From the NCBI GenBank assembly GCA_903859215.1, contig CAIOLW010000043.1, forward strand, positions 1-32,247: a stretch of DNA of 32,247 nt, read 5' to 3'. The translations under genes and the position numbers were made by a program. The stretch comes from an uncultured bacterium (GTDB lineage Bacteria; Krumholzibacteriota; Krumholzibacteriia; LZORAL124-64-63). Under the pieces are notes generated by a model. It did no database searches. It saw only the letters and a list, made by a program, of their open reading frames with translations, and was not told the DNA's origin. Position 1 is the stretch's first letter. Each line of letters opens with the position of its first letter. Below are positions 6,422 through 27,532 of the stretch, in pieces.

Positions 6422-7291
6422 ATGGAACCCCGCAGTTCGAAAGTCCACGCCGTCGTGCTGATGGTGTTCTCGCTGGCCGTTGCCGCCCAGATCGCGTGGA
6501 CCGTCCACGCCGGTTGGGGCTACTACACCACGCCGCTCGCAAACAGGCCCCACCAGGCCGAACTCCGCGATTTCCGGGCCGCGGGCACCATTGGCCACGG
6601 GCTCGGCATCCTCGGCAGCTTCATGATCATCCTGCTGCTGCTGTATTCGCTGCGCAAGCGGATGAACGTTCTGCAGCGCGCCGGCGAGCTGCGTATCTGG
6701 TTGCGCTACCACATCTTCCTTGGTGTGGCGGGCCCGATTCTGATCACCCTGCATACGGCCTTCAAGGTGGGCGGCCTGGTTGCGGTCAGCTACTGGTCGA
6801 TGGTCGCGGTGGCCCTCAGCGGTTTCATCGGGCGCTACCTGTACCAGCAGCTGCCCCGCAACGTGCTGGGCGAGACGCTGGCCGTGGAGGAGATCGAGGC
6901 CCGCAACGAGGCCCTCCTGGTCGAGTTGTCCACCCGCTTCGGCATGGACGACCGCGCCGCCTCCCTGTTGGAAGACATCGCCCTGCGCAAGCTCGAGCAC
7001 CGGTCGGCGCCGGTCGCCCTGATTTTGCTGCCTTTTCTCAATGGCATTTTGGCGCGACAATTGCAGAGGTGGGCACTCCGGTATGCGGAAGGGGATCGGG
7101 CCGCCGCAGCGAAACTGGCCAAAACCTGGGCGCTCCAGACCCGGCGACTGCGGTTGTTCGACTTGATCCGGGACCTCTTCCACTACTGGCACGTGTTTCA
7201 TAAGCCCTTTGCGTTCATCATGATCATCGTGATGATCGTGCACGTGACGGTCGCGGTGATGCTCGGGTACGTGTGGAAATTCGGCTCCTGA
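6422..7291 (+). CDS. Cytochrome-b-like inner-membrane protein of a cytochrome operon
   Basis: This 289-residue protein has about five hydrophobic helices: residues 8-28, 57-77, 93-112, 118-140 and 262-285. Two pairs of histidines are spaced exactly 14 residues apart and lie in or beside membrane helices: H97/H111 and H260/H274. That spacing is the one used by diheme cytochrome b, where one helix supplies a ligand to each of two hemes. Extra histidines (H29, H59, H254, H257) are also near helices. Between helices 4 and 5 lies a charged cytoplasmic-type segment rich in Glu and Arg. The start ATG has GGAG about 8 nt upstream. The gene opens a five-gene run with two multihaem cytochromes, a barrel and a ferredoxin-flavoprotein, so a role in moving electrons between the quinone pool and periplasmic hemes is a reasonable inference. 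I do not recognise a named family. Confidence 0.8.
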
Positions 7292-7305
7292 CGGGGGATG
7301 GAAAT

Positions 7306-9075
7306 TTGGCTGGTGCAAAGCATGCCGCGCGTTGCGGATCCTGGACATCGTGTGGCATTTCCCGCTCAATCTGCTTTGTGATTCTGCAAATCATGATCGC
7401 TTCGATCGCCCAAGCTCAACTCTCGCCGGGGCCGCTGAGCCGTCCCCATGCCCAACTCGAGGGACTCAAGAAGTGTGACCAGTGCCATGAGATGGGCAAT
7501 CGCCAGGTCGGCGACAAGTGCGTGGCCTGCCACCAGGAGATCGCGGCCGAGCGCACCTCCGGCAAGGGCCTGCACGCCGAGCCGGCGTTCGCCCGCTGCG
7601 TCGACTGCCACACCGAGCACCACGGCGCGGACTACAACCTCGTGTTCTGGAAGGACGGGCAGGACAAGTTCGACCATCACCGGGCGGGCTGGGACCTGAC
7701 CGGCGCCCACGCCAAGCTCGAGTGCCGCAAGTGCCACAGCGTGAAATACCTCGCCGATCCCGGTTCGCTGAGCGCGCGCCACAAGGACCTGAACCGGACC
7801 TTCCTGGGCCTGCCCAGGGACTGCGTGGGCTGCCACGGCGACCACCACCGCGGCCAGCTCAAGACCGACGGCAAGGTGCGTGCCTGCACGGCGTGCCACG
7901 ACACGGCCCGCTGGAAGCCGGCGGCCGCTTTCGACCACGCGAAGACCGCGTTCCCGCTGACCGGGCGCCACCAGCCGGTCCTCTGCGCCAAGTGCCATCC
8001 CGTGCTGCCGGTCGAGGCGAGCGATCGCGGCGCGCCGCCGACCGCGAAGTACACGCCGGTGGCCCACGCGAACTGCACCGACTGCCACAAGGACAAGCAC
8101 GCCGGGCAACTGGGGCCCGAGTGCGCGAAGTGCCACGTGACCGAAGGCTGGAAGATCATCAACGGCGCCGGCTTCGATCACGCGAAGACGAAGTACCCGC
8201 TGGTCGGGCGCCACGCGAAGCTGGCCTGCGGCGATTGCCACGGCCCGGGCCGCCAGAAGCCGCCCTTCGCGGCCTGCCGCGATTGCCACCGCGATGCCCA
8301 CGACGCCGCGGGCCGGCAGCGGCCGGCGTACCTGGCCTGCGAGACCTGCCACACGGTCGACGGGTTCAAGCCGGCGCGCTTCGGCCTTGAGCAGCACGCC
8401 AGGACGGCGTACCCGCTGCAGGGCGCCCACCAGGCCGTGCCGTGCCTGATGTGCCACAAGCCGCTTGCCGCGGCGGCCGGGCAGAAGACTCCCTACGCGT
8501 CCACACCCGACCTCAAGCCTGTGGGCGCGCGCTGCGTGGATTGCCACCGTGATCCGCACCTGGGCCAGGGCGACAAATACGCGGTCGACGCGAACGCGGG
8601 CGCCTGCGTGGCCTGTCACAACCAGGACAGCTGGCGCAAGGTCGTCTTCGACCACAACCGGGCCGAGTTCAAGCTGGACGGCCGTCACCTGAAGGCCGCC
8701 TGCACGAGTTGCCACAAGCCGGTCGCCGCGACGAAGAAGGAGCCGAAGTCCCTGCCGTTCAAGGTTGCCGCGAAGCACTGCGCCGCGTGCCACCAGGATG
8801 TCCACAAGGGCCAGTTCGACGACCGCCCTGTCGCCGGGATCCAGGCCGCCGATTGCGCGCGCTGCCACGTGACGACCGACTGGCTGGCCGAGAAATTCGA
8901 CCACGAGAAGGACAGCCGCTTCCCGCTGCGCGGCGGCCACGAAAAGGTCGCCTGTCAGAAGTGCCACCTGCCGATCGCCGCGGACAACCCGCGCCTGTTG
9001 CACTTCAAGCCCTTGCCGATCGATTGCCGCGCCTGCCACGCGAATACGCCGGCAGGCCAGAAAGGCCAATCATGA
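7306..9075 (+). CDS. Periplasmic multihaem c-type cytochrome with 20 CxxCH motifs
   Basis: The protein contains 20 CxxCH haem-attachment motifs spread over about 590 residues. Many are in the recurring patterns CxxCHxDxH and FDHxxTxFPLxGxH...CxxCH, typical of cytochrome c3-like, doubled-CxxCH proteins; the extra histidines are probable distal haem ligands. The start is taken as TTG 7306-7308, which has GGGGGA seven bases upstream and yields a signal peptide ending near AQA (residue 37). An in-frame GTG at 7273 would overlap the previous gene and lacks such a site, and ATG 7393-7395 would cut the signal peptide. It lies 14 nt after the membrane protein gene and overlaps the next cytochrome gene by an ATGA. 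Likely role: an electron carrier in the periplasm handing electrons to or from the larger cytochrome. Lysine-rich composition and lack of a lipobox argue for a soluble protein. Confidence 0.9.
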   Translation: MAGAKHAARCGSWTSCGISRSICFVILQIMIASIAQAQLSPGPLSRPHAQLEGLKKCDQCHEMGNRQVGDKCVACHQEIAAERTSGKGLHAEPAFARCVDCHTEHHGADYNLVFWKDGQDKFDHHRAGWDLTGAHAKLECRKCHSVKYLADPGSLSARHKDLNRTFLGLPRDCVGCHGDHHRGQLKTDGKVRACTACHDTARWKPAAAFDHAKTAFPLTGRHQPVLCAKCHPVLPVEASDRGAPPTAKYTPVAHANCTDCHKDKHAGQLGPECAKCHVTEGWKIINGAGFDHAKTKYPLVGRHAKLACGDCHGPGRQKPPFAACRDCHRDAHDAAGRQRPAYLACETCHTVDGFKPARFGLEQHARTAYPLQGAHQAVPCLMCHKPLAAAAGQKTPYASTPDLKPVGARCVDCHRDPHLGQGDKYAVDANAGACVACHNQDSWRKVVFDHNRAEFKLDGRHLKAACTSCHKPVAATKKEPKSLPFKVAAKHCAACHQDVHKGQFDDRPVAGIQAADCARCHVTTDWLAEKFDHEKDSRFPLRGGHEKVACQKCHLPIAADNPRLLHFKPLPIDCRACHANTPAGQKGQS

Positions 9076-11492
9076 GCATCCGATCCGCGATGAATCGCCG
9101 CGGGCGTCCGCTGGCGGTCGTGCTGCTGGCCGTGCTGGTCGCCGGGACGGCGGTGGCGGCCGGCGCCGCGAAGAAGGCGGACGCTGCGCCAAAGGCCGCG
9201 AAGGACACGAAGGCCGCGCCGGCCACGGCCGAGCCGCCGGCGCCCCATGCCGGGAATCCCCACGGGGACATGTCGCTGGACTGCCGCCTGTGCCACAACG
9301 CGCAGGGCACCGCCAACGACAAGGCGCTCTCCTTCGACCACGCGACGACCGGCTTCGTGCTGGAAGGCCAGCACGCGCGCGTAGCCTGTCGCGACTGCCA
9401 CAGGCAGCCGCAGTTCTCGAACATCGGCACGCGCTGCTCGGACTGCCACCAGGACGCGCACCAGGCGCGCCTCGGGCCCGTCTGCGAGCAGTGCCACACG
9501 CCGGACGGCTGGGTGCAGCGCACCCGCGCCCAGCGCGATCACGACAACACGCGCCTGCCGCTGGTCGGGGCGCATGCGAAGGTCGACTGTGACGCGTGTC
9601 ACGAAGGGGCCGTGAGGGGCACCTATGTCGGCACGCCCTTCGAATGCTATGCCTGCCACCAGGCGGATTTCGAGGCGACGAGCAATCCCAACCACCGCAC
9701 GGCCGGCTTCACCACCGACTGCAACCGCTGCCACGGCGTGTTCTCGTCGTCCTGGGGTCGGGGCGACTTCATCCACTCGCTCAACTTCCCGCTGACGGGC
9801 GCCCATGCGACGGCGCAGTGCGCCGCGTGCCACACCGATCGCTTCGCGGGCACGCCGACCGACTGTTACGCGTGCCACCAGCCCGCCTACGACAGTTCCG
9901 TGAACCCGCCCCATGCGGCGGCGAACCTGGGCACCGACTGCGTCACGTGCCATACCACGGCGGCCTGGCGCCCGACGTCCTACAACCATGCCACGACCGG
10001 CTTCGCGCTGACGGGCGGGCACAGCCAGGTGGCGTGCATGGCGTGCCACCAGTCGGGCTACGTCGGCACGCCGGCCGACTGCTATTCGTGCCACCGCACA
10101 AACTACGAGGGCACGACGAACCCGAACCACGTCGCCGGCGTCTTCCCGACCGACTGCACGATATGCCACACGGCGACGCGGTGGGACCAGTCGAACTTCG
10201 ACCACGCGCGCACGACGTTCCCGCTGACCGGCGCCCATGCAAGCCGGACGTGCGTGGAGTGCCACGCGACGGGGTACACCGGCACGCCCACGGACTGCTA
10301 TGCGTGCCATCGCACGAACTACGAGGCGACCGCGAACCCGAACCATGCGGCGGCCAACATCCCGACGACGTGCGCGACCTGCCATTCCACCACGGGCTGG
10401 ACGCCGGCGTCGTTCAACCACAACGCGACCTCGTTCCCGCTGACGGGCGCACACACGGCGCAGACCTGCACGGCATGCCACGCCACCGCCTACACGGGCA
10501 CGCCTTCGGACTGTTACGCCTGCCACCAGGCCAACTACACCGGGGCCACGAATCCCGAACACGCGGCAGCCGGCTATCCCACGGCGTGCGTGACGTGCCA
10601 CTCGACGGCAGCCTGGTCGCCGGCGCAGTTCAACCACAACTCGACGTCGTTCCCGCTGACCGGGGCGCATACGGCGCAGGCCTGCGTGGCCTGCCATGCA
10701 ACGACGTTCAACGGCACGCCGACTGACTGCTATGCCTGCCATCAGGCCAACTACACCGGGGCCACGAATCCCGAGCACGCGGCAGCCGGCTATCCCACGG
10801 CGTGTGCGACGTGCCACTCGACCACCGGTTGGTCGCCGGCGCAGTTCAACCACAACACGACCACGTTCCCGCTGACCGGGGCGCATACGGCGCAGGCGTG
10901 CGCGGCCTGCCATGCAACGACGTTCAACGGCACGCCGACTGACTGCTACGCGTGCCACCAGAACGACTACACGCGGGCCGCGAACCCGGAACACGCGGCA
11001 GCCGGCTACCCGACGGCGTGCGTGACCTGCCATTCGACCACGGCGTGGTCGCCGGCGCAGTTCAACCACAGCACGACGTCTTTCCCGCTGACCGGGGCGC
11101 ACACGACACAGGCGTGCGCGGCCTGCCATGCCACCACGTTCAACGGCACGCCGACCGACTGTTACGCGTGCCACCAGAGCGCGTATGCGCAGACGACGAA
11201 CCCGAGCCATGCCGCAGCGTCGTTCCCGACGACGTGCACGACGTGCCACACGACGACCGCCTGGGCGCCGTCGACGTGGAACCATGAAACGCTGTTCCCG
11301 ATCAAGACAGGCAAGCACACGAACCTCTCGTGCACGCAGTGCCATGTCACGCCGAGCAACTATGCGAATTTCGAGTGCATCCTTTGCCACGAGCACAACC
11401 AGGCGGACATGAACAGCAAGCATTCCGGGCGAGCCGGCTACTCCTGGGTCAGCTCGGAATGCTACCGCTGCCATCCGAGGGGGCGCACGTGA
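9072..11492 (+). CDS. Giant repeat-built multihaem c-type cytochrome with 31 CxxCH motifs
   Basis: This 806-residue protein has a signal peptide (residues 1-30, ending near VAAGA), an Ala/Lys/Pro-rich linker to about residue 60, and 31 CxxCH motifs. Five lie before residue 190, twenty-four are in eight tandem modules (residues 192-767), and two are in the C-terminal tail. Each module starts with a CYxCH motif and carries three haem motifs plus three other histidines in the patterns NPxH, FNH and TGAH, so each can supply both axial ligands for its hemes. The ATG shares ATGA with the stop of the preceding cytochrome, and its own TGA overlaps the barrel gene start. Thr/Ser/Asn-rich modules, unlike the Lys-rich first cytochrome, suggest an exported or surface location. 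Whether it plugs the barrel or forms an extended wire cannot be told from sequence. Confidence 0.9.
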   Translation: MSIRSAMNRRGRPLAVVLLAVLVAGTAVAAGAAKKADAAPKAAKDTKAAPATAEPPAPHAGNPHGDMSLDCRLCHNAQGTANDKALSFDHATTGFVLEGQHARVACRDCHRQPQFSNIGTRCSDCHQDAHQARLGPVCEQCHTPDGWVQRTRAQRDHDNTRLPLVGAHAKVDCDACHEGAVRGTYVGTPFECYACHQADFEATSNPNHRTAGFTTDCNRCHGVFSSSWGRGDFIHSLNFPLTGAHATAQCAACHTDRFAGTPTDCYACHQPAYDSSVNPPHAAANLGTDCVTCHTTAAWRPTSYNHATTGFALTGGHSQVACMACHQSGYVGTPADCYSCHRTNYEGTTNPNHVAGVFPTDCTICHTATRWDQSNFDHARTTFPLTGAHASRTCVECHATGYTGTPTDCYACHRTNYEATANPNHAAANIPTTCATCHSTTGWTPASFNHNATSFPLTGAHTAQTCTACHATAYTGTPSDCYACHQANYTGATNPEHAAAGYPTACVTCHSTAAWSPAQFNHNSTSFPLTGAHTAQACVACHATTFNGTPTDCYACHQANYTGATNPEHAAAGYPTACATCHSTTGWSPAQFNHNTTTFPLTGAHTAQACAACHATTFNGTPTDCYACHQNDYTRAANPEHAAAGYPTACVTCHSTTAWSPAQFNHSTTSFPLTGAHTTQACAACHATTFNGTPTDCYACHQSAYAQTTNPSHAAASFPTTCTTCHTTTAWAPSTWNHETLFPIKTGKHTNLSCTQCHVTPSNYANFECILCHEHNQADMNSKHSGRAGYSWVSSECYRCHPRGRT
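9645..11375 (+). repeat. Eight tandem 216-219 bp tri-haem coding repeats
   Basis: Units begin at the first Cys codon of each CYxCH motif: 9645, 9864, 10080, 10296, 10512, 10728, 10944 and 11160. The first is 219 bp and the other seven are 216 bp. The units starting at 10512, 10728 and 10944 are nearly identical at DNA level, pointing to recent duplication or gene conversion; outer units have diverged. Reading frame and haem spacing are kept throughout. Confidence 0.93.
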
Positions 11493-13096
11493 TGCCCATG
11501 GCCGTTCGACGCGCCGGTGCGGCCTTCGTGCTCCTGGCGTTCCTGCTGGCGGTCCCGGCGGCTTCCCGCGCCGCCGAGGCCGAGTGCCACGTGCGTTTCG
11601 TTTCGATCGACAACGTCTACCTGGACGCGGGCAGCGCCGCGGGCCTGGACATGGGCGTGAAGGTGCACATCGTGCGCGAGGGCAAGGCCGTGGCCGAGCT
11701 GGAAGTGACCTATGTCGCCGAGAACTCGGCCTCGTGCCGCATCGTCAGCGGCGCCGGGACGATCAACACCGGCGATCGCGCCGTCTTCGCGCCGGTCGGG
11801 GCGGCGGCGCCGGCGGCGCCCGACACGCTCGTATCACGCGCCCGCGCAGTGACCCCGACGGCGACCAGGCCGAAAGCCAGGGTCGAGGACCGCTTCGACG
11901 GCTGGCTGGCCGTGCAGTGGGACGGCAGCACCGAGACGACATCGCGCGACCTGCGGACCGACCTGCTGAGCGTGCCGTTCCGCGTGCGCGCCCGCGACCT
12001 CGGCCACGGCTTCGAGTTCTCGGGCCGCGGCAATTTCCGGCGCATCACGCGCCAGGGCTTCGGCGCGAGCACGCCGGCCTCGGAGTGGCGCAACCGCATC
12101 ATGGAGGCGGCGTTCGTGCGCGAGGGCCGCGACCTGGGTTGGCAGCTGGCGTTCGGTCGCGTCGGCAGCCGCAACACTGCCGCAGCCGGGCCTTTCGACG
12201 GCCTTTCGGTGACGCGTCGCCTGGGCAAGGGGACGACGTTCGGCGCCTTCGGCGGCTTCGCCCCGGCGTGGGGCGACCTCGGTTTCAACACGAACGACCA
12301 CCTGGCCGGGCTCGTCTTCGACCACGAGCGCGCGGGCGCGGGCGGTCGCCGGCTCGACCTGACGCTGTCCGCGATCGGCCGCTACCGCCAGGGCCAGATC
12401 AGCCGCGAATACCTGTCGCTGGTCACCAGCTGGCGCGACGGCAAGCGGCTGAGCCTGCTGCAGGCAGCCGAAGTCGACCTGAACCGCGGCTGGCGGCGCG
12501 AGGGCACCGGCAAGAGCGCGCAGCTGACCAGCACGGCGCTGACCGGCCGCATCCAGGTTTCCCGGCCGCTGGCCGTCACTTTGGGCTACGACGGCCGCGA
12601 ACCGGTCAGGACCTGGGAGACGCGCTCGCTGCCGGACAGCCTGTTCACCGACGCCGGCCGCAACGGCTGGCGCGCCGGCGCCGCGTGGCGCGGCCCGGGC
12701 GGCACGGCCCTCGACATCTCGAGTGGCGCTCGCCACGAGCAGCGCAGCGGCGAGGACGTCACGTCGTGGCAAACGATGCTGCGGCTGCCGACGCGTGTCC
12801 TGCACGTGGCCGACGTGGCGCTGTCGGCGCGCGGCTTCGACGGCCCCTGGCTGTCGGGCTGGGCGCCGAGCGCGAGGCTGACGCGATCGACCGGCAGCGT
12901 GCTCTGGTCGCTCGACGGCGGTCGTTTCTCATACACCGGCAAGCAGGCGGATGCGACGCGCAACAACACCTGGGCCGAACTGGGCGCGTCCTGCGCCCTT
13001 GGAACCGGCTGGTCGCTGGCCGGTTCATGGCATCGTGACTGGGGCGACGACATCACCGGGCAGCGGTTGTTCGTGGAACTTGGCATGCGTTTCTAG
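11492..13096 (+). CDS. Outer-membrane beta-barrel of the cytochrome operon (porin-like)
   Basis: This 534-residue protein has a signal peptide (cleavage near SRAAEA, residues 26-30), a small N-terminal domain (about residues 32-105) with the pattern VYLDAGSAAGLDMG...GDRAVF, a Pro/Ala/Thr linker, and then about 400 residues of alternating amphipathic strands with aromatic girdles. It ends ELGMRF, a C-terminal aromatic strand typical of BAM-inserted barrels. The small domain resembles short beta domains seen in FlgT-like periplasmic proteins; that comparison is from memory. The start overlaps the previous stop (TGATG). Its place directly after two multihaem cytochromes suggests the porin part of a porin-cytochrome conduit. 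No MtrB-type Cys motif is present, so homology to MtrB is not claimed. Confidence 0.8.
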   Translation: MPMAVRRAGAAFVLLAFLLAVPAASRAAEAECHVRFVSIDNVYLDAGSAAGLDMGVKVHIVREGKAVAELEVTYVAENSASCRIVSGAGTINTGDRAVFAPVGAAAPAAPDTLVSRARAVTPTATRPKARVEDRFDGWLAVQWDGSTETTSRDLRTDLLSVPFRVRARDLGHGFEFSGRGNFRRITRQGFGASTPASEWRNRIMEAAFVREGRDLGWQLAFGRVGSRNTAAAGPFDGLSVTRRLGKGTTFGAFGGFAPAWGDLGFNTNDHLAGLVFDHERAGAGGRRLDLTLSAIGRYRQGQISREYLSLVTSWRDGKRLSLLQAAEVDLNRGWRREGTGKSAQLTSTALTGRIQVSRPLAVTLGYDGREPVRTWETRSLPDSLFTDAGRNGWRAGAAWRGPGGTALDISSGARHEQRSGEDVTSWQTMLRLPTRVLHVADVALSARGFDGPWLSGWAPSARLTRSTGSVLWSLDGGRFSYTGKQADATRNNTWAELGASCALGTGWSLAGSWHRDWGDDITGQRLFVELGMRF

Positions 13097-13111
13097 GGAA
13101 GCGGGGCGGAC

Positions 13112-14500
13112 GTGGAAGCGACATTCATCTGGCTGGGCGTCGGCGGGTTGTTCTGCCTGAGCTTGCTGATCTACGTGCGCCAGTTCCGCAACCGGCGCAG
13201 CGCCGACCTGGAACGATTGATCCAGAACCGCGAACTGGGCATGGACCGTCCCACGGGCCAGTACCCGCTCATCGACGCCGCCGCCTGCATCGGGTGCGGC
13301 ACGTGCGTGTCGGCCTGCCCCGAGCACGACGTGCTCGGCATCGTCATGGGCCGTTCGGTGGTCATCAACGGCGCCCGCTGCATCGGCCACGGCAAGTGCG
13401 CCGAGGCGTGCCCGGTCGGCGCCATCCGCATCGGGCTCGGCGACATCACCAAGCGCGACGACATCCCGGTGCTCAGCGCCGAGGGCCAGACCAACCTGCC
13501 CGGCCTGTGGATCGCCGGCGAGCTGAGCGGCTTCGCCCTGATCAACAACGCTGTGGCCCAGGGACGCAAGGTGATCGAGGCGATCGCCGCGACCGGCGGC
13601 CCGCGCGAAGTAGGGCCGTCCGAGGTGTTCGATGTCGTGGTCGTTGGCGCCGGTCCGGCCGGCATGAGCGCCGGGCTGGTGGCCGGAGAACTCGGGCTGT
13701 CGTGCGTCATCCTGGACCAGCAGGGCGCCGGCGGGACGATCCTGCAGTACCCGCGCCGCAAGCTGGTGATGGTGCAGCCGGTGGAGTTCCCGCGCATGGG
13801 CCGGCTGCCCCGGCACGAGTACGTCAAGGAAGAGCTGCTGGAGATCTGGGACAGCCTGCACCGCGACTACGGCCTGGATATCCGCGTCGGCCCGCGCGTG
13901 ACGGGCGTCAAGGGCAGGAAGGGCGATTTCACGGTCGAGACGACCGCCGGCAACTGGCGTGCGCGCCACGTGGTGCTGGCTTTGGGCCGCCGCGGTTCGC
14001 CGCGCCGCCTGAACGTGCCGGGCGAGGACCTGGGCAAGGTGGCGTTCCAGCTGATCGATGCCGAGGCCTACAAGGGGCGCCGGGTGCTGGTCGTGGGCGG
14101 CGGCGACTCGGCGGTCGAGGCCGCGATGGGATTGGCCCACCAGGACGGCTGCCAGGTGACGCTGTCCTACCGCAAGCCCGAGTTGATGCGCATCAAGCAG
14201 CGCAACTCCGAGCGCGTCGAGGCGCTGATCGCCCAGGACCGTATCGCGTTCCTCGGCGGCACCAACGTCAAGACGATCCTGGCGGACCGCGTCGTGCTGG
14301 AGGGTCCCACCGGTCCGATCATGCTGCCGAACGACGAAGTCTTCATCCTGGCCGGCGGCGTGCCGCCGTTCGCGCTGCTGCGCGAGATCGGGGTCGCCTT
14401 CGGCGGCGACCAGAAGGATGCCGAGCGCGCGGAGGCCGCGAGAGCGGCCAAGGCTGCCGAATCGCCCGGCGGCGTGGGTTCGGGCGTCCAGTCCGCCTGA
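13112..14500 (+). CDS. Membrane-anchored ferredoxin / FAD-NAD(P) oxidoreductase fusion
   Basis: The 462-residue protein has one N-terminal membrane helix (residues 4-22) and then a two-cluster ferredoxin domain. The first cluster motif, CIGCGTCVSACP (59-70), is complete; the second, CIGHGKCAEACP (90-101), has His in place of the second Cys. Residues 118-160 (TNLPGLWIAGELSG...A..GRKV) resemble the C-terminal FAD segment of thioredoxin-reductase-like enzymes, yet they come before the FAD Rossmann motif VVVGAGPAGMSAG (176-188) and the NAD(P) motif VLVVGGGDSAVEAA. The usual C-terminal FAD segment is missing at the end, so the fold looks circularly permuted. The start is GTG with a GGGGCGG stretch upstream, 15 nt after the barrel gene. 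It probably links cytoplasmic NAD(P)H or ferredoxin to the membrane cytochrome of the operon. Confidence 0.85.
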   Translation: MEATFIWLGVGGLFCLSLLIYVRQFRNRRSADLERLIQNRELGMDRPTGQYPLIDAAACIGCGTCVSACPEHDVLGIVMGRSVVINGARCIGHGKCAEACPVGAIRIGLGDITKRDDIPVLSAEGQTNLPGLWIAGELSGFALINNAVAQGRKVIEAIAATGGPREVGPSEVFDVVVVGAGPAGMSAGLVAGELGLSCVILDQQGAGGTILQYPRRKLVMVQPVEFPRMGRLPRHEYVKEELLEIWDSLHRDYGLDIRVGPRVTGVKGRKGDFTVETTAGNWRARHVVLALGRRGSPRRLNVPGEDLGKVAFQLIDAEAYKGRRVLVVGGGDSAVEAAMGLAHQDGCQVTLSYRKPELMRIKQRNSERVEALIAQDRIAFLGGTNVKTILADRVVLEGPTGPIMLPNDEVFILAGGVPPFALLREIGVAFGGDQKDAERAEAARAAKAAESPGGVGSGVQSA

Positions 14501-15388: not shown

Positions 15389-16702
15389 CTAGAACGTAAA
15401 GCGGTCCCCGAAGCAGAAGAACCACTTGTGGTCCTCGTTGCGCGCGCCCTCGAAGCGCAGCTGCCACGTGTCGAGGCTCACGTGCGCCCCGGCGCCCCAG
15501 GTGACGACGGGGTCGCCCGGCGTGGCGCCGTCCCACCAGGCCTGGCCGCCGTCGACGAACGCGTGCAGGCCCAGTCCCACCGACTCGCCGCCCGGCGCGA
15601 TCGGCACCATCACCAGCGGCAGGCGGTACTCGGCCGTCAGCAGCCAGCCCTCCTCGCCCTCGAGCGACCCGAAACCGGCGCCGCGGATGGTGTCCGGCCC
15701 GCCCAGGAACAGCACGTTGTCCAGCGGCACGGGACCGCTCACGCGGCGGCCCCAGGCGCGCAGCGCCAGCAGGTGCCTGCCCGCGGGCAGCGGCAGGAAG
15801 GCGCGCGCGTCGCCCGTCACCTCGCGGTAATCGGCGAAACCGTTGCCTGCCCACCAGGCCGACTCGACCAGCACGCTGGCGCCGCGGTGCGGGTAGATCG
15901 GGTTGTCGCGCGAGTCGAGGCCGGCGCCCAGCGCCAGGCGCCAGTGATCCTCGTCGCCGGCGGCGTAGTCGGTCGCGACGCCGGCCGACCCGGCGCCGCG
16001 CGTCGGCGACTGCGCAAGGTAGGCGTCGCGCTGCGCGAAGTTGCCCCGCCGCGCGCCGCCCTGCACGAACGCGGGGCCGGCGAAGGTCCAGCGCGTCGAC
16101 AGGCCGGCGTCCCACTTGCGATAGCGCGTGGGGCGGAAGACGAAATCGGCCTGCTCGCCGCGCAGCGACAGCGTGCCCTGCAGTCCGCGCACGCCGCCCA
16201 GCCAGGGCACGTGCCACTCGGCGCCGGCCGCCTGCAGGCGCCAGGCCGAGACCTCGAAGCGCAACAGCTGCCCCGTGCCGCCCAGGTTGCGCTCCTCGAG
16301 CCAGCCGCCCAGCTGGTAGTTGTGGCGGCGGTTGTAGCGCACGAGCGGCCCGTAGTACGTCGTGATGTCCTCGGCGACCTCCACCGTCAGCACCAGCTTG
16401 CCGTCCCCGTCGCGGTCGGCGCCCATGTCGACGAAGCGGAACCAGCCGCAGTCCTCCAAAGCGTCCCAGGCCTTGTCCAGGCGGTCGGCGTTCAGCGAGT
16501 CGCCCTCGGCCAGGCCCATCACCCGGCGCACCGCGATCTCCTTCGTGTGTGCGTTGCCGGTGATTGCGATGCGGGCGATGCGTCCCTTGGCCGACGGCAG
16601 GGCGCGCGCGGCGCCGGCCGGCACGAGGACCGCCAGCAGGAGCGCCAGCACGGGGACCAGGGCGGACCGGAAGCGACGCGAAGAAGAAGACGGGTTGGGC
16701 AT
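15389..16702 (-). CDS. BamA/TamA-family outer-membrane barrel with one POTRA domain
   Basis: A signal peptide (residues 1-35, ending ARALP) is followed by one POTRA-like domain (about 38-115; ITGNAHTKEIAVRRVMGLAEGD, then the CGWFRFVDM strand) and a barrel of about 320 residues. LGGPDTIRGAGF near residue 335 corresponds to the conserved RGF/RGY loop motif of the Omp85 family, and the protein ends with Phe. With a single POTRA it is shorter than BamA (five) or TamA (three), so it is probably an accessory Omp85-type translocation, assembly or lipid-related protein. It stands alone between a convergent crotonase gene and an unrelated pair of genes. Confidence 0.85.
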   Translation of the reverse strand: MPNPSSSSRRFRSALVPVLALLLAVLVPAGAARALPSAKGRIARIAITGNAHTKEIAVRRVMGLAEGDSLNADRLDKAWDALEDCGWFRFVDMGADRDGDGKLVLTVEVAEDITTYYGPLVRYNRRHNYQLGGWLEERNLGGTGQLLRFEVSAWRLQAAGAEWHVPWLGGVRGLQGTLSLRGEQADFVFRPTRYRKWDAGLSTRWTFAGPAFVQGGARRGNFAQRDAYLAQSPTRGAGSAGVATDYAAGDEDHWRLALGAGLDSRDNPIYPHRGASVLVESAWWAGNGFADYREVTGDARAFLPLPAGRHLLALRAWGRRVSGPVPLDNVLFLGGPDTIRGAGFGSLEGEEGWLLTAEYRLPLVMVPIAPGGESVGLGLHAFVDGGQAWWDGATPGDPVVTWGAGAHVSLDTWQLRFEGARNEDHKWFFCFGDRFTF

Positions 16703-23022: not shown

Positions 23023-23167
23023 TTAGTCGACTGCTCGTGGGTACGGAGATGGCCTGAGTCGCCCCAGCGCTCGCTTCCGCACGTCTCCCTCCAAAGTTCG
23101 TCGCCGAGCCGGGCGCCCAGTCGGGCGCCTTGTGCGGCTTTCGCCCTTGCCTGATCCGGGAGTTGCC

Positions 23168-26100
23168 ATGAAAGCCCTGCGTCTTCGCCTATTCCCCATC
23201 CTGCTGACGCTTGCGTTGGCCGGCGCGCTCGCCCTGCCGGTGTTCTCCGCGCCGCAGGATGCCCCTGTCGCCGGGATGACCACCGAGGGTGTTCGTGGCG
23301 TCGCCGAGTCGATGTCCGCCATCAATGCCCGCCAGGCGATCGAGGATGCGCGCGGCAACCAATCCATCCGCGAACAGGAAGACCAGGACGAACGGGAGGA
23401 GAAGGTCGACCGCAGCTCCCTGCCGCAGAATCCCTTCGCTCCCGAGTCGGCGGCGATGGTCGACGGCCAGCCCACGGCCCTGCCGGCCGAGAAGTCGCTG
23501 TCCGAGGCCCAGCAGACGGTGAGCACCACCTTCACGGGCGCGACGCTGTCGGGCACCAACCCGACGCTCTCGTTCCCGCCCGACAGCATGGGCGCGGTCG
23601 GCCCCACGCAGTACGTGGTCTTCGTCAACGGCCGTCTGGTCACGTTCAACAAGAACACCGGCGCGGCTGACGGCGTGCTGAACGCCAATCCGGACGTGTT
23701 CTTCGCGTCGGTCATCACGAGCGGTTCCTACACCAGCGATGCGCGCATCCGTTACGATCGCCTGTCCGGCCGCTGGTTCCTGGTGATGATCGACGTGGCG
23801 ACGCCCAATCGCATCATGTTCGCGGTCAGCGACGCCGCCAGCGCCAGCGCCATCACGCTCTCGACGGTCTGGACGAAGTTCTACCTCACCAGCCCGACCG
23901 GATGCCTGTCGGACTACCCGACCCTGGGCGTCGACGCCAACGCGCTGTACATCGGCACGAACAACTTCTGCAGCGGCGGCACAAGCTTTGCCGGCACCGA
24001 CGGCTACGTCGTGCGCAAGAGCTCGATCATGGGCGCCGGCCCGATCGTCTACACGCGCTTCGCCAGCCTGTGCACCGCTTCGAGCGCCGGCCCGTACACG
24101 CCGCAGGGCGTCGACAACTACGACCCGAGCGCGACCGAGGGCTACTTCATCGGCACCGACAACGCCGCGTACGGCCTGCTCCAGCTGCGCCGCGTGTTCA
24201 ATCCCGGCGGCACGCCGACGATTTCGGCCAACATCCCCATCACCGTGACGTCCACGGTGGCGCCGGTGCTGGTCAACCACCTGGGCAACACGAAGGGCAA
24301 CAACGGCCGGCTCGACGCGCTGGACGACCGCCTGTTCGCCGCGCACATCCGGAACGGCCGCCTGTGGACGGCCCATAACATCCAGGTCAACGCCAGCGGC
24401 GTGGCCAACGCCACCGGCGGTCGCAACGGCGTGCGCTGGTACGAACTGAACGGCGTCCGCACCGTCGACAACGGCGGCGCGCCGGTCGTCGTGGAATCCG
24501 GCACGATCTTCGATCCGACCGCGACCAGCCCGGTCTCGTACTGGATCCCGTCCGTGATGGTGTCGGGCCAGGGCCACGCCGTCTTCGGCTTCAGCCACGC
24601 CGGCGCCGCGGCCAACGCCAACGCGGCCGTGTCCGGCCGCCTGGCTGGCGACGTGCTGGGCGCCACGCAGGCCGTCCAGAAGTACACCAACACCGCGACG
24701 GCCTACAACCCGGCCAGCGACGTGGGCGGCACCTACGGCCGGCGCTGGGGCGACTACTCGTACACCAGCCTCGATCCGCTGGACGACATGTCGATGTGGA
24801 CGATCCAGGAGTTCTGTGACGCCACGAACTCGTACGGCCTGCGCGTGGCCAAGCTGCTGGCGCCGCTTCCGGCCACGCCCAGCGTGCTGGCGGACATCAA
24901 CGCGGGCCAGGCCTCTGTCGCCGTCACGCTGACCGGCGTTTCGACCAGCGGTTCCGGCTACTACGACCCGGGCGCGAACCTGCCCGCGGGCCCGGCCTTC
25001 ACCCACCTGTCGGCCAGCATCAGCAACGGCAGCGCCACCGGCACGCCGCCCACCGTGGTCTCGGCGACCTACGTCAACCCGACGACGGTCAACCTGGTGC
25101 TCAACGCCAGCGCGGCCACGGGCAACGTGGGCGCCGAGAAGTACACGCTGACGATTACGAACCCCGACGGCCAGACCGCCGCGGCCGCCGTCGTGCACGT
25201 CGTCGGCGCGGCGCCGCCGCCGAGCGCGACTCTCGCTGCCAACGTGGCCGGCGCGGAGGGCAACTCCGGCAACACGCCGTTCACGTTCACGGTGAACCTG
25301 TCGGGCGCCGCGGCGTCGCCGGTCACCGTGCGCTGGCACACGAACGACGGCACCGCGACGGGCGCCGACCTCGACTTCACCGCCGTCGCCGCCGACTCGG
25401 TGACCATCGCGGCGGGCAGCACCTCGGGCACGTTCAACGTGGTCGTCAAGGGTGACACCAAGTTCGAGAACAACGAGACGTTCGGCGTCGTGCTGACCTC
25501 GGCGACCAACGCCACCCTGGGCGCGACCACGACGGCCACGGGCACGATCACCAACGACGACACCGCGCCGACGATCGCCATCGCGCCTGTTGCGCAGGCC
25601 GAGGGCAACAGCGGCACGACGGCCTATGCGTTCACGGCGACGCTGTCGGCCGCCAGCGGCCTCGCCGCCTCGGCCGGCTACGCGACGGCGGACGGCACGG
25701 CGACGGTTGCCGACGGCGACTACACCGCCGCCTCGGGCACCCTCAACTTCCCCGCCGGGACCACGACGCAGCCGATCACGGTCAACGTCGCCGGTGACGT
25801 GAAGTACGAGGCGAACGAGACCTTTGCGGTGAACCTGTCGAGCCTGACGGGCATCTCGTCCGTGACGACGCAGGGCGCCGGCACCATCACGAACGACGAC
25901 ACGGCGCCGACCGTGGCCCTGGACAACGTGACGCTGGCCGAGGGCAACAGCGGCACCACCGCGTTCACGTTCACGGCGACGCTGTCGGCCGCGAGCGGCA
26001 CGGTCGCCACGGCGGACTATGCCACCAGCGATGGCACGGCGACCACGGCCGACGGCGACTACGCGGCCGCCGGCGGCACGGTCACGTTCCCGGCCGGTAC

Positions 26101-27532
26101 GACGACGCAGGCCGTCACGGTCAACGTTGCCGGCGACACGAAGTACGAGGGCGACGACGGCTTCGCGCTGGCGCTGTCCAACCTGGCCGGCATTTCGTCG
26201 GTGACCGCGCAGGGCGCCGGCACGATCACCAACGACGACACGGCCCCGACCGTGGCGCTCGACGCGGTGTCGCACGCAGAGGGCAACAGCGGCACCACCG
26301 AGTACCTCTTCACGGCAACGCTGTCGTCTGCGAGCGGCCTGGCCGCCTCGGCGGACTACACCACCGTGGACGGGACGGCGACCGTCGCCGACAACGACTA
26401 CGCGGCGGCCACCGGCACGATCACGTTCCCGGCCGGCACGACCACGCAGCCGATCACGGTGCTGGTCAACGGCGACACGGCGAACGAGACGGACGAGGCC
26501 TTCGCCGTCGACCTGTCGAACCTGGCGGGCATCGCGTCGGTGACGACGCAGGGCGCCGGCACCATCGTCAACGACGAGGCCGGCCCGGTGCTGTCGATCG
26601 CGAACATCGCCACGCCCGAGGGCAACTCGGGCACGACGCCGTTCGTGTTCACCATCACGATGTCGGTCGCCAGCGCCAGCGACGTCACGGTGCATGTGGC
26701 GACGGCTGACGGCACCGCGACCGCCAGCGACTACACGGCCCGCTCGGCCACGCTGACCATCCCGGCAGGCGCGACCACCCTGGCCGACACGGTGCAGGTC
26801 AATGGCGACACGTGCGGCGAGGTCGATGAAACGTTCACGATGACGCTGTCGTCGCCCGTGGGCGCCACGATCGGCACCCCGACCGCGACCGCGACCATCC
26901 AGAACGACGACGACGTCACGTCGCCGTCGGTGACCGTCACGTCGCCCAATGGCGGCGAGGCGGCCTACCTGGCCGGCACGATCGACATCACCTGGACGGC
27001 GACCGACGATGTCGCGGTTTCCAGCGTGGACATCCTGCTGTCGCGCGATGGCGGCGGCACCTGGAGCGAAACTCTGGCTTCCGGCATCGGCAACACCGGC
27101 ACGTACGAGTGGACGGTCACCGGCCCGGCGGCCCCCGGCACGGCGCTGGTGAAGGTCGTCGCCTATGACGGCGGCTGCAACAGCGGCAGCGACGTCAGCG
27201 ACGCGGCGTTCAACATCGCGGACCCGGCGCTGTCGGGCGTCTCGGACGGCCCGGTCACCGAGTTCGCGCTCAGTTCGCTGCGGCCGAACCCGACCGCCGG
27301 CCAGACGCTGATCCAGTACCAGCTGCCGCAGGCCAGTCATGTGCGGCTGTTCATCGTCGACCTGCGCGGCCGCATCGTGTCGCGCGTCATCGACAACGAA
27401 GTGGGCCCCGGCCGCCACACGGCGAACTGGTCCGGCCACACCGACACGGGCCCGGCTCCCGCCGGCATCTATTTCGTGATCTTCGAGGCGGGCGGGCATC
27501 GCTTCCACAAGAAGCTGGTGCTGGCGCACTGA
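23168..27532 (+). CDS. Giant secreted protein: propeller-like domain, five Calx-beta repeats, FlgD-like sorting tail
   Basis: This 1454-residue protein has a signal peptide (residues 1-28, ending PVFSAPQ). After an acidic, low-complexity spacer to about 105, residues 110-570 look like a propeller-type domain (PPDSMGAVGPTQYVVFVNG, YDRLSGRWFLVMID, RRWGDYSYTSLDPLDD). Five Calx-beta domains follow (about 685-1250), each with AEGNSGTT-like starts, ADGTAT turns and an ITNDD end. An Ig-like domain opening TSPNGGE (about 1257-1355) precedes a FlgD-like C-terminal domain (LRPNPTAG, then PAGIYFVIF and FHKKLVLAH), related to type IX-style sorting tails. GGGAG precedes the ATG. Calx-beta repeats bind calcium and occur in adhesins, so a surface or adhesive role is inferred. 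No protease or glycosidase motif was seen. Confidence 0.88.
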   Translation: MKALRLRLFPILLTLALAGALALPVFSAPQDAPVAGMTTEGVRGVAESMSAINARQAIEDARGNQSIREQEDQDEREEKVDRSSLPQNPFAPESAAMVDGQPTALPAEKSLSEAQQTVSTTFTGATLSGTNPTLSFPPDSMGAVGPTQYVVFVNGRLVTFNKNTGAADGVLNANPDVFFASVITSGSYTSDARIRYDRLSGRWFLVMIDVATPNRIMFAVSDAASASAITLSTVWTKFYLTSPTGCLSDYPTLGVDANALYIGTNNFCSGGTSFAGTDGYVVRKSSIMGAGPIVYTRFASLCTASSAGPYTPQGVDNYDPSATEGYFIGTDNAAYGLLQLRRVFNPGGTPTISANIPITVTSTVAPVLVNHLGNTKGNNGRLDALDDRLFAAHIRNGRLWTAHNIQVNASGVANATGGRNGVRWYELNGVRTVDNGGAPVVVESGTIFDPTATSPVSYWIPSVMVSGQGHAVFGFSHAGAAANANAAVSGRLAGDVLGATQAVQKYTNTATAYNPASDVGGTYGRRWGDYSYTSLDPLDDMSMWTIQEFCDATNSYGLRVAKLLAPLPATPSVLADINAGQASVAVTLTGVSTSGSGYYDPGANLPAGPAFTHLSASISNGSATGTPPTVVSATYVNPTTVNLVLNASAATGNVGAEKYTLTITNPDGQTAAAAVVHVVGAAPPPSATLAANVAGAEGNSGNTPFTFTVNLSGAAASPVTVRWHTNDGTATGADLDFTAVAADSVTIAAGSTSGTFNVVVKGDTKFENNETFGVVLTSATNATLGATTTATGTITNDDTAPTIAIAPVAQAEGNSGTTAYAFTATLSAASGLAASAGYATADGTATVADGDYTAASGTLNFPAGTTTQPITVNVAGDVKYEANETFAVNLSSLTGISSVTTQGAGTITNDDTAPTVALDNVTLAEGNSGTTAFTFTATLSAASGTVATADYATSDGTATTADGDYAAAGGTVTFPAGTTTQAVTVNVAGDTKYEGDDGFALALSNLAGISSVTAQGAGTITNDDTAPTVALDAVSHAEGNSGTTEYLFTATLSSASGLAASADYTTVDGTATVADNDYAAATGTITFPAGTTTQPITVLVNGDTANETDEAFAVDLSNLAGIASVTTQGAGTIVNDEAGPVLSIANIATPEGNSGTTPFVFTITMSVASASDVTVHVATADGTATASDYTARSATLTIPAGATTLADTVQVNGDTCGEVDETFTMTLSSPVGATIGTPTATATIQNDDDVTSPSVTVTSPNGGEAAYLAGTIDITWTATDDVAVSSVDILLSRDGGGTWSETLASGIGNTGTYEWTVTGPAAPGTALVKVVAYDGGCNSGSDVSDAAFNIADPALSGVSDGPVTEFALSSLRPNPTAGQTLIQYQLPQASHVRLFIVDLRGRIVSRVIDNEVGPGRHTANWSGHTDTGPAPAGIYFVIFEAGGHRFHKKLVLAH
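25601..26617 (+). repeat. Tandem 339-bp Calx-beta coding repeats
   Basis: The Glu codon of the AEGNSG-type motif recurs at 25601, 25940, 26279 and 26618, exactly 339 bp (113 codons) apart; a more divergent unit starts at 25256. Three full 339-bp units share long stretches of sequence, suggesting expansion by duplication. Confidence 0.88.

Follow-up and report, generated by a model that had tools for sequence, protein, structure and literature searches.

The five genes at positions 6422-14500 of the window (the whole stretch of 32,247 nucleotides analysed here) probably encode a porin-cytochrome system of the PCC3 type together with a dedicated cytoplasmic flavoprotein, a wire linked to NAD(P)H (or ferredoxin) that would probably carry electrons outward. 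The name PCC3 stands for a porin-cytochrome cluster reported from Proteobacteria, which comprises a porin, an extracellular multihaem cytochrome (MHC; median of 34 haems), a periplasmic MHC (median of 21) and an inner-membrane protein or IMP (He et al., 2017; PMC5566968). Sequence comparison establishes that the IMP, the first cytochrome (MHC1) and the barrel of the window are homologous to PCC3 components, that the second cytochrome (MHC2) is PCC3-like, that the clustering of the genes is conserved and that the flavoprotein (FLV) is linked to them across phyla. On these comparisons, each of the first four genes has its own counterpart in PCC3, and the new element is the fifth, FLV, as a PCC3 partner. 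The text passages of the PCC3 literature covered count four genes and mention no flavoprotein, though a figure or supplement may draw one unnamed; a joint search for PCC3 and a flavoprotein in openly readable text returned no paper. The original suggestion of a gene set without a known match had to be given up for the four genes described by He et al. (2017; PMC5566968). The complex that they match is a described and uncharacterised one: the same portions of the literature hold neither biochemistry nor demonstrated extracellular electron transfer for any PCC3.

Organisation of the operon

All five open reading frames are present on the + strand. The first (6422-7291) encodes the IMP, an inner-membrane, di-haem-b-like protein of 289 aa. 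The frame of MHC1, a periplasmic-type multihaem cytochrome c, opens with GTG at 7273, and its likely start is the TTG at 7306, which has a GGGGGA ribosome site ahead and lies after a 14-nt gap from the IMP end at 7291; the alternative GTG would create a 19-nt overlap with the IMP gene. MHC1 (7306-9075) overlaps MHC2 (9072-11492) by 4 nt at 9072-9075, MHC2 overlaps the gene of the outer-membrane beta-barrel (11489-13096; 535 aa) by 1 nt (or 4 nt) at 11489-11492, and a 15-nt gap precedes FLV (13112-14500; 462 aa). With the TTG start, the tight junctions originally predicted for five same-strand genes are borne out: the longest overlap is 4 nt, and no gap exceeds 15 nt. The predicted 51 haem motifs are likewise exact by CxxCH count, with 20 in the MHC1 frame (7273-9075) and 31 in MHC2 (9072-11492); the remaining frames of the window hold one CxxCH in total, and background Cys and His frequencies give about 0.003 by chance per 1,400 aa. 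Upstream lies a divergent gene judged by eye from its translation to be glutaminyl-tRNA synthetase-like, and an enoyl-CoA hydratase gene starts 90 nt after FLV. A promoter scan upstream of 6422 detected no promoter-like site, and a terminator scan gave candidates at chance level only.

The inner-membrane protein

PCC3 IMPs are about 300 aa long, and the published signature of PCC3 and PCC4 IMPs combines SGxxG with WX3HX13H in two places (He et al., 2017; PMC5566968). The window IMP carries this signature in full, with WX3HX13H at 93-111 and again at 256-274 and SGFIG at 133-137, and it has five hydrophobic segments predicted to be transmembrane (TM) helices. The cytochrome-b-like membrane protein of the original prediction is therefore recovered, with five helices and two HX13H haem-b motifs. 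These motifs are invariant across 15 aligned relatives and are present in all 31 proteobacterial IMPs inspected, and the profile aligns with that of proteobacterial PCC3 IMPs at an HHalign probability of 100% (E=6e-43). Searches of Pfam, including its ferric reductase domain, and of NCBIfam returned no family match. By hydropathy and charge, H97 and H260 would lie on the cytoplasmic side and H111 and H274 on the periplasmic side, and the protein would hold its two b haems one above the other. NADPH oxidase and ferric reductases are built in this way, and the PCC3 authors had already compared the IMP with them (He et al., 2017; PMC5566968). Since the AlphaFold2 model, built on an alignment of four sequences, is too poor to use (pLDDT 56), these haems are read from the motif only. 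The likeness to the NADPH oxidase and ferric reductase core (FRD superfamily) would be an analogy of function, in that the HX13H pairs of TM3 and TM5 would be fed by a cytoplasmic NAD(P)H flavoprotein; unlike in that superfamily, FLV is encoded by a separate gene and has a thioredoxin-reductase-like FAD/NAD(P) fold with Fe-S, and the IMP is without the Pfam ferric-reductase match.

The multihaem cytochromes

Both cytochromes have Sec signal-like N-termini, MHC2 being without a lipobox, and both have histidines to spare (28 for the 20 haems of MHC1 and 33 for the 31 of MHC2), so that bis-His ligation is possible in each. At 30 and 26 aa per haem, respectively, they fall within the published PCC3 range of 22-39. 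Searches of solved structures with either protein returned no match. MHC1, with 20 CxxCH, lies close to the roughly 21 haems of the periplasmic PCC3 cytochrome, and would likewise be periplasmic. Nearly all complete orthologues in its two home phyla also have 20 CxxCH, whereas those in Proteobacteria (scores of about 320-530 bits) have 21, 24 or 27, in agreement with the counts published for Gallionellaceae (PMC10734462). A component whose size has to suit the periplasm would be expected to keep such a near-constant haem number.

MHC2 would correspond to the extracellular cytochrome of PCC3, and we propose from its sequence that it forms the outer, surface wire. An array of about five copies of a 216-bp unit (72 aa, three haems) was identified within it by Tandem Repeats Finder at 10064-11270. 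Haem counts in the window's family range from 16 to 49 (31, 28, 22, 16, 19, 49 and others), and all are 1 modulo 3, a three-step variation that agrees with the three-haem repeat and shows that the length of the wire evolves in whole three-haem modules. Variable length is what a free surface wire would be expected to show.

The predicted outer-membrane barrel

The barrel gene adjoins the cytochrome genes, as the porin gene does in PCC3, and its product is predicted to be an outer-membrane protein, as originally proposed. Following a signal peptide and a small N-terminal beta domain (residues ~31-100), the AlphaFold2 model has 22 long strands (mean pLDDT 76), and the sequence ends in a C-terminal Phe. 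The best PDB matches of the model are outer-membrane barrels of a generic kind (ushers, TonB receptors, OprD), with no specific partner among the matches, and Pfam returned no match, MtrB_PioB included. The profile nevertheless aligns with that of proteobacterial PCC3 porins at E=1.2e-8 in HHalign, against 0.01-0.5 for negative controls comprising unrelated barrels and a POTRA protein, and window-type barrels and PCC3 porins have the motif GR-x(n)-G-x-FDG in common. By sequence, the barrel is thus a distant but detectable relative of the PCC3 porins, and a clearly smaller one.

Relation to PCC3 and other known systems

The closest published counterpart is Slit_1446-1449 of Sideroxydans lithotrophicus ES-1, in which the order is IMP, periplasmic MHC, extracellular MHC and porin (PMC8788666). 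The window operon resembles it in gene order, IMP motifs, haem counts, low number of residues per haem and repeat-built outer cytochrome. It differs in lying outside Proteobacteria, in having an FLV gene within the operon where the published clusters, in the parts covered, have four genes, in the 20 haems of MHC1 as against 21, 24 or 27, and in a barrel of 535 aa and 22 predicted strands as against about 600-900 aa and up to 42 strands. Because the IMP and barrel profiles, the haem counts and the ES-1 gene order agree, the operon can be regarded as a PCC3 outside Proteobacteria with a smaller barrel.

Other assignments were considered and set aside. With PCC4 the operon shares the IMP motifs and the combination of a porin with multihaem cytochromes (He et al., 2017; PMC5566968); PCC4 cytochromes, as far as described there, have 4, 5 and 10 haems, an extracellular MHC is lacking and the redox protein is larger, and the 20 and 31 CxxCH of the window led to the rejection of this assignment. 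Two PCC4-like loci (L179 and L180; MHCs with 10, 4 and 5 haems) have a larger FLV-related redox protein adjoining the IMP, and from these loci PCC3 and PCC4 may share flavoprotein ancestry. MtrCAB, MtoAB and PioAB likewise combine a barrel with a multihaem cytochrome across the outer membrane, but the window operon has no CymA-like tetrahaem donor. MtrCAB/MtoAB was rejected on the barrel, which has no MtrB_PioB match, and on the cytochromes, which score 56-62 bits against a cut-off of 192 for the DmsE family and fall far below the DmsE/MtrA and OmcA/MtrC cut-offs. The Geobacter Omb-Oma-Omc set, with its 8-haem periplasmic and 12-haem outer cytochromes, was rejected on haem numbers. The original view that the operon is neither MtrCAB nor a Geobacter set is in line with these results.

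The flavoprotein

FLV begins with a hydrophobic helix (residues 1-23) followed by positive residues, and continues with Fer4 and Pyr_redox domains, which agrees with the membrane-anchored ferredoxin-flavoprotein first proposed; by the positive-inside rule, its C-terminal part would be cytoplasmic. The FAD site reads GxGPAG and the NAD(P) site GGGDSA, with R354 and R360, which would bind the phosphate of NADPH by analogy with thioredoxin reductases; R354 is invariant wherever covered and R360 nearly so. Candidate Fe-S ligands are C59, C62, C65, C69, C90, H93, C96 and C100. Six of these (C59, C65, C69, C90, C96 and C100) are invariant across 70 sequences. Position 62 is occupied by C, S or T and rarely by A, V or I, and position 93, in the second Fe-S motif, is His in 70 of 70. 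Classical 2[4Fe-4S] ferredoxins have Cys at this place. A group of FLV-related proteins of about 780 aa was set apart as another family: only FLV residues ~118-433 were matched, and the three loci inspected (L296-L298) have neither IMP nor MHC nearby.

Could FLV be co-inherited for cytochrome maturation or redox repair, outside the electron path? The thioredoxin-reductase-like FAD/NAD(P) domains, which make FLV kin to the thioredoxin reductase/YpdA family, would favour this, as would its divergent transcription in Proteobacteria (see below). None of the 70 sequences has a CxxC in the FAD/NAD part, so FLV is no disulphide reductase of the usual kind; moreover, the Fe-S domain and membrane anchor are conserved, and the predicted cytoplasmic location is away from the site of haem attachment. 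We consider such a role highly improbable.

Linkage and distribution

Among 80 genomes of the window's phylum, 22 have strong IMP matches and 22 full or large FLV matches, in nearly the same genomes (Fisher p=8e-19, kinship ignored), and the FLV tree agrees closely with the IMP tree in this phylum (correlation of the distance matrices, 0.98), as expected of co-inherited genes. The order IMP-MHC1-MHC2-barrel-FLV on one strand is kept in many genomes of the window's family, and the genes are not scattered in relatives. Deeper relatives (G008, L012 and an Emticicia plasmid) have the order IMP-FLV-MHC1-MHC2-barrel, and loci of the phylum KSB1 the order FLV-IMP-MHC1-MHC2-barrel. In KSB1, 23 of 82 genomes have an FLV match, and the 17 full-length loci fetched, a few of them cut by contig ends or frameshifts, are PCC3-linked. 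The cultured Bacteroidota member Emticicia oligotrophica DSM 17448 carries all five genes on plasmid pEMTOL02, where they have a haem-attachment gene of the CcsA/ResB type as a neighbour. The genome samples consist in part of fragmented MAGs, and the phylum of genome G084, with two genomes only, was uninformative.

Proteobacteria were sampled from L011, a contig of a 'Nitrosomonas' MAG (JAJFJH010000299.1), which served only as the centre for sampling. It carries a barrel nearly identical to that of KSB1 locus L008 in a genome without an IMP, was therefore taken to be probably misbinned, and was rejected as a genuine Nitrosomonas locus. In 300 genomes of one proteobacterial order, an IMP-profile search and an independent FLV-only search were made. 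Fifteen loci fetched with the former combine an IMP with two large MHCs, one of which has 24-27 haems, and only about half of them have a porin-like match to the window-type barrel model. The latter found FLV in 16 of the 300 genomes, every time (16/16) within a PCC3 cluster, and no other genome reached the threshold (Fisher p=7e-24, kinship ignored); three loci in which IMP relatives are paired with a 10-haem cytochrome are without FLV. A class-wide sample gave FLV matches in 44 of 369 genomes and added PCC3 forms with a 21-haem MHC; all 20 of the FLV loci fetched are PCC3-linked, 18 with an IMP and 2 with a barrel and an MHC in the stretch read. FLV and IMP lie on opposite strands in 32 of the 33 proteobacterial loci showing both, mostly within 210 bp of each other, which may explain the omission of FLV from a same-strand cluster definition.

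By sequence matches, then, PCC3-type systems have FLV as a companion in nearly every case, FLV accompanies them in three or more phyla besides Proteobacteria, and PCC3 itself is extended to at least three phyla beyond them. Two KSB1 loci (L287 and L288) have the gene order of the window, and L288 groups with the window's phylum in the tree, a pattern for which lateral transfer of the operon is possible.

Proposed mechanism and direction of electron flow

A trans-envelope electron conduit, as first proposed, is well supported by the co-localisation of the genes, the signal-like N-termini, the predicted barrel, the haem-b signature and the homology to PCC3. FLV would oxidise NAD(P)H (or exchange electrons with ferredoxin), and by way of its FAD and Fe-S clusters the electrons would reach the IMP, where a stack of two b haems would span the inner membrane in an architecture resembling the NADPH oxidase/ferric reductase core; MHC1 would take the electrons across the periplasm, and the barrel and MHC2, with its length set by three-haem repeats, would deliver them to the surface. 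The claim of a whole path from NAD(P)H or ferredoxin stands as a good inference, favoured by the linkage of FLV to PCC3 and by IMP relatives that lie beside another NAD(P)H-type flavoprotein; the electron flow along it is the part that we infer. Those distant relatives, on plasmids of Alteromonas, Methylophaga and Methylocystis, directly follow a FAD_binding_6/NAD_binding_1/2Fe-2S reductase (plant-type FNR with 2Fe-2S) that has no Pfam family in common with FLV, and the pairing of two unrelated NAD(P)H reductase folds with the IMP family argues that this family is fed by, or feeds, nicotinamide.

PCC3 is found in iron and manganese oxidisers and has repeatedly been discussed as a possible iron oxidase, and its authors proposed inward electron flow to the quinone pool (He et al., 2017; PMC5566968). 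The IMP would then be a quinone-reactive cytochrome b passing electrons from extracellular Fe(II) or minerals inward, with FLV as a side branch only. The rise of the IMP of one PCC3 copy in strain CL21 when cells could oxidise iron, as described, speaks for this and, like the authors' proposal, counts against outward flow from NAD(P)H. Conversely, both PCC3 clusters of ES-1 were reported to be down on Fe(II) (PMC8788666), and the tight linkage of a membrane-anchored, NAD(P)-type flavoprotein would be left unexplained; we regard quinone-linked inward flow as a conceivable but rather unlikely account. It is less likely still that FLV produces NAD(P)H or reduced ferredoxin from electrons moving inward, by low-potential uptake or confurcation. 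Its FAD and two Fe-S sites, with an invariant His ligand candidate suggestive of a tuned potential, would suit such chemistry; inward flow opposes the membrane potential, and a bifurcation partner subunit is absent from the operon.

It is more likely that electrons run outward to an extracellular acceptor, with direction, donor and acceptor all deduced, because their exit from the cytoplasm is favoured by the membrane potential, because reduction of NAD(P)+ by Fe(II) electrons over the PCC3 route would be strongly uphill, and because of the reported ES-1 response. With its divergent promoter in Proteobacteria, FLV could be under separate regulation or act indirectly, which counts against this explanation. 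A broader generalisation, which we advance tentatively and which may fail somewhat more readily than it holds, is that PCC3 works as a trans-envelope reductase of five components, driven by NAD(P)H independently of quinones and shared by at least four phyla, in which a NOX-like flavoprotein/di-haem-b module is joined to a periplasm-spanning and a surface haem chain, the His-containing Fe-S motif of the flavoprotein is conserved throughout, and iron oxidation is not the primary function. With the linkage of FLV across phyla, PCC3 gains a likely missing component, and direction and donor become testable; such tests would be feasible in cultured organisms, namely Emticicia oligotrophica DSM 17448, Sideroxydans and Leptothrix.

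Additional observations

The plasmid loci in which an IMP relative comes right after the FAD/NAD-binding 2Fe-2S reductase number four (L116-L119) and include one of Roseomonas. A small multihaem cytochrome comes next in those of Methylophaga and Alteromonas, without a barrel, and the Alteromonas locus adjoins a [NiFe] hydrogenase operon.

The window has a G+C content of 70% and comes from a 4.33-Mb genome spread over 391 contigs. This genome encodes CcsA/CcmF-type proteins for haem attachment (PF01578), a requirement of cytochrome c synthesis. Multihaem c7-type cytochromes lie on many other contigs (C36, C11, C152, C274, C32, C67 and C196), two of them in frames of 1049 and 945 aa, so the genome is cytochrome-rich beyond the operon. 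Downstream of the operon and convergent with it, the window encodes a short Omp85-family protein with only one POTRA domain detected (15389-16702, - strand). A further frame of the window, at 23132-27532, encodes 1466 aa, with five or more Calx-beta domains, one bacterial Ig domain and a weak Por_Secre_tail at the C-terminus; its product is likely to be a large secreted surface protein.
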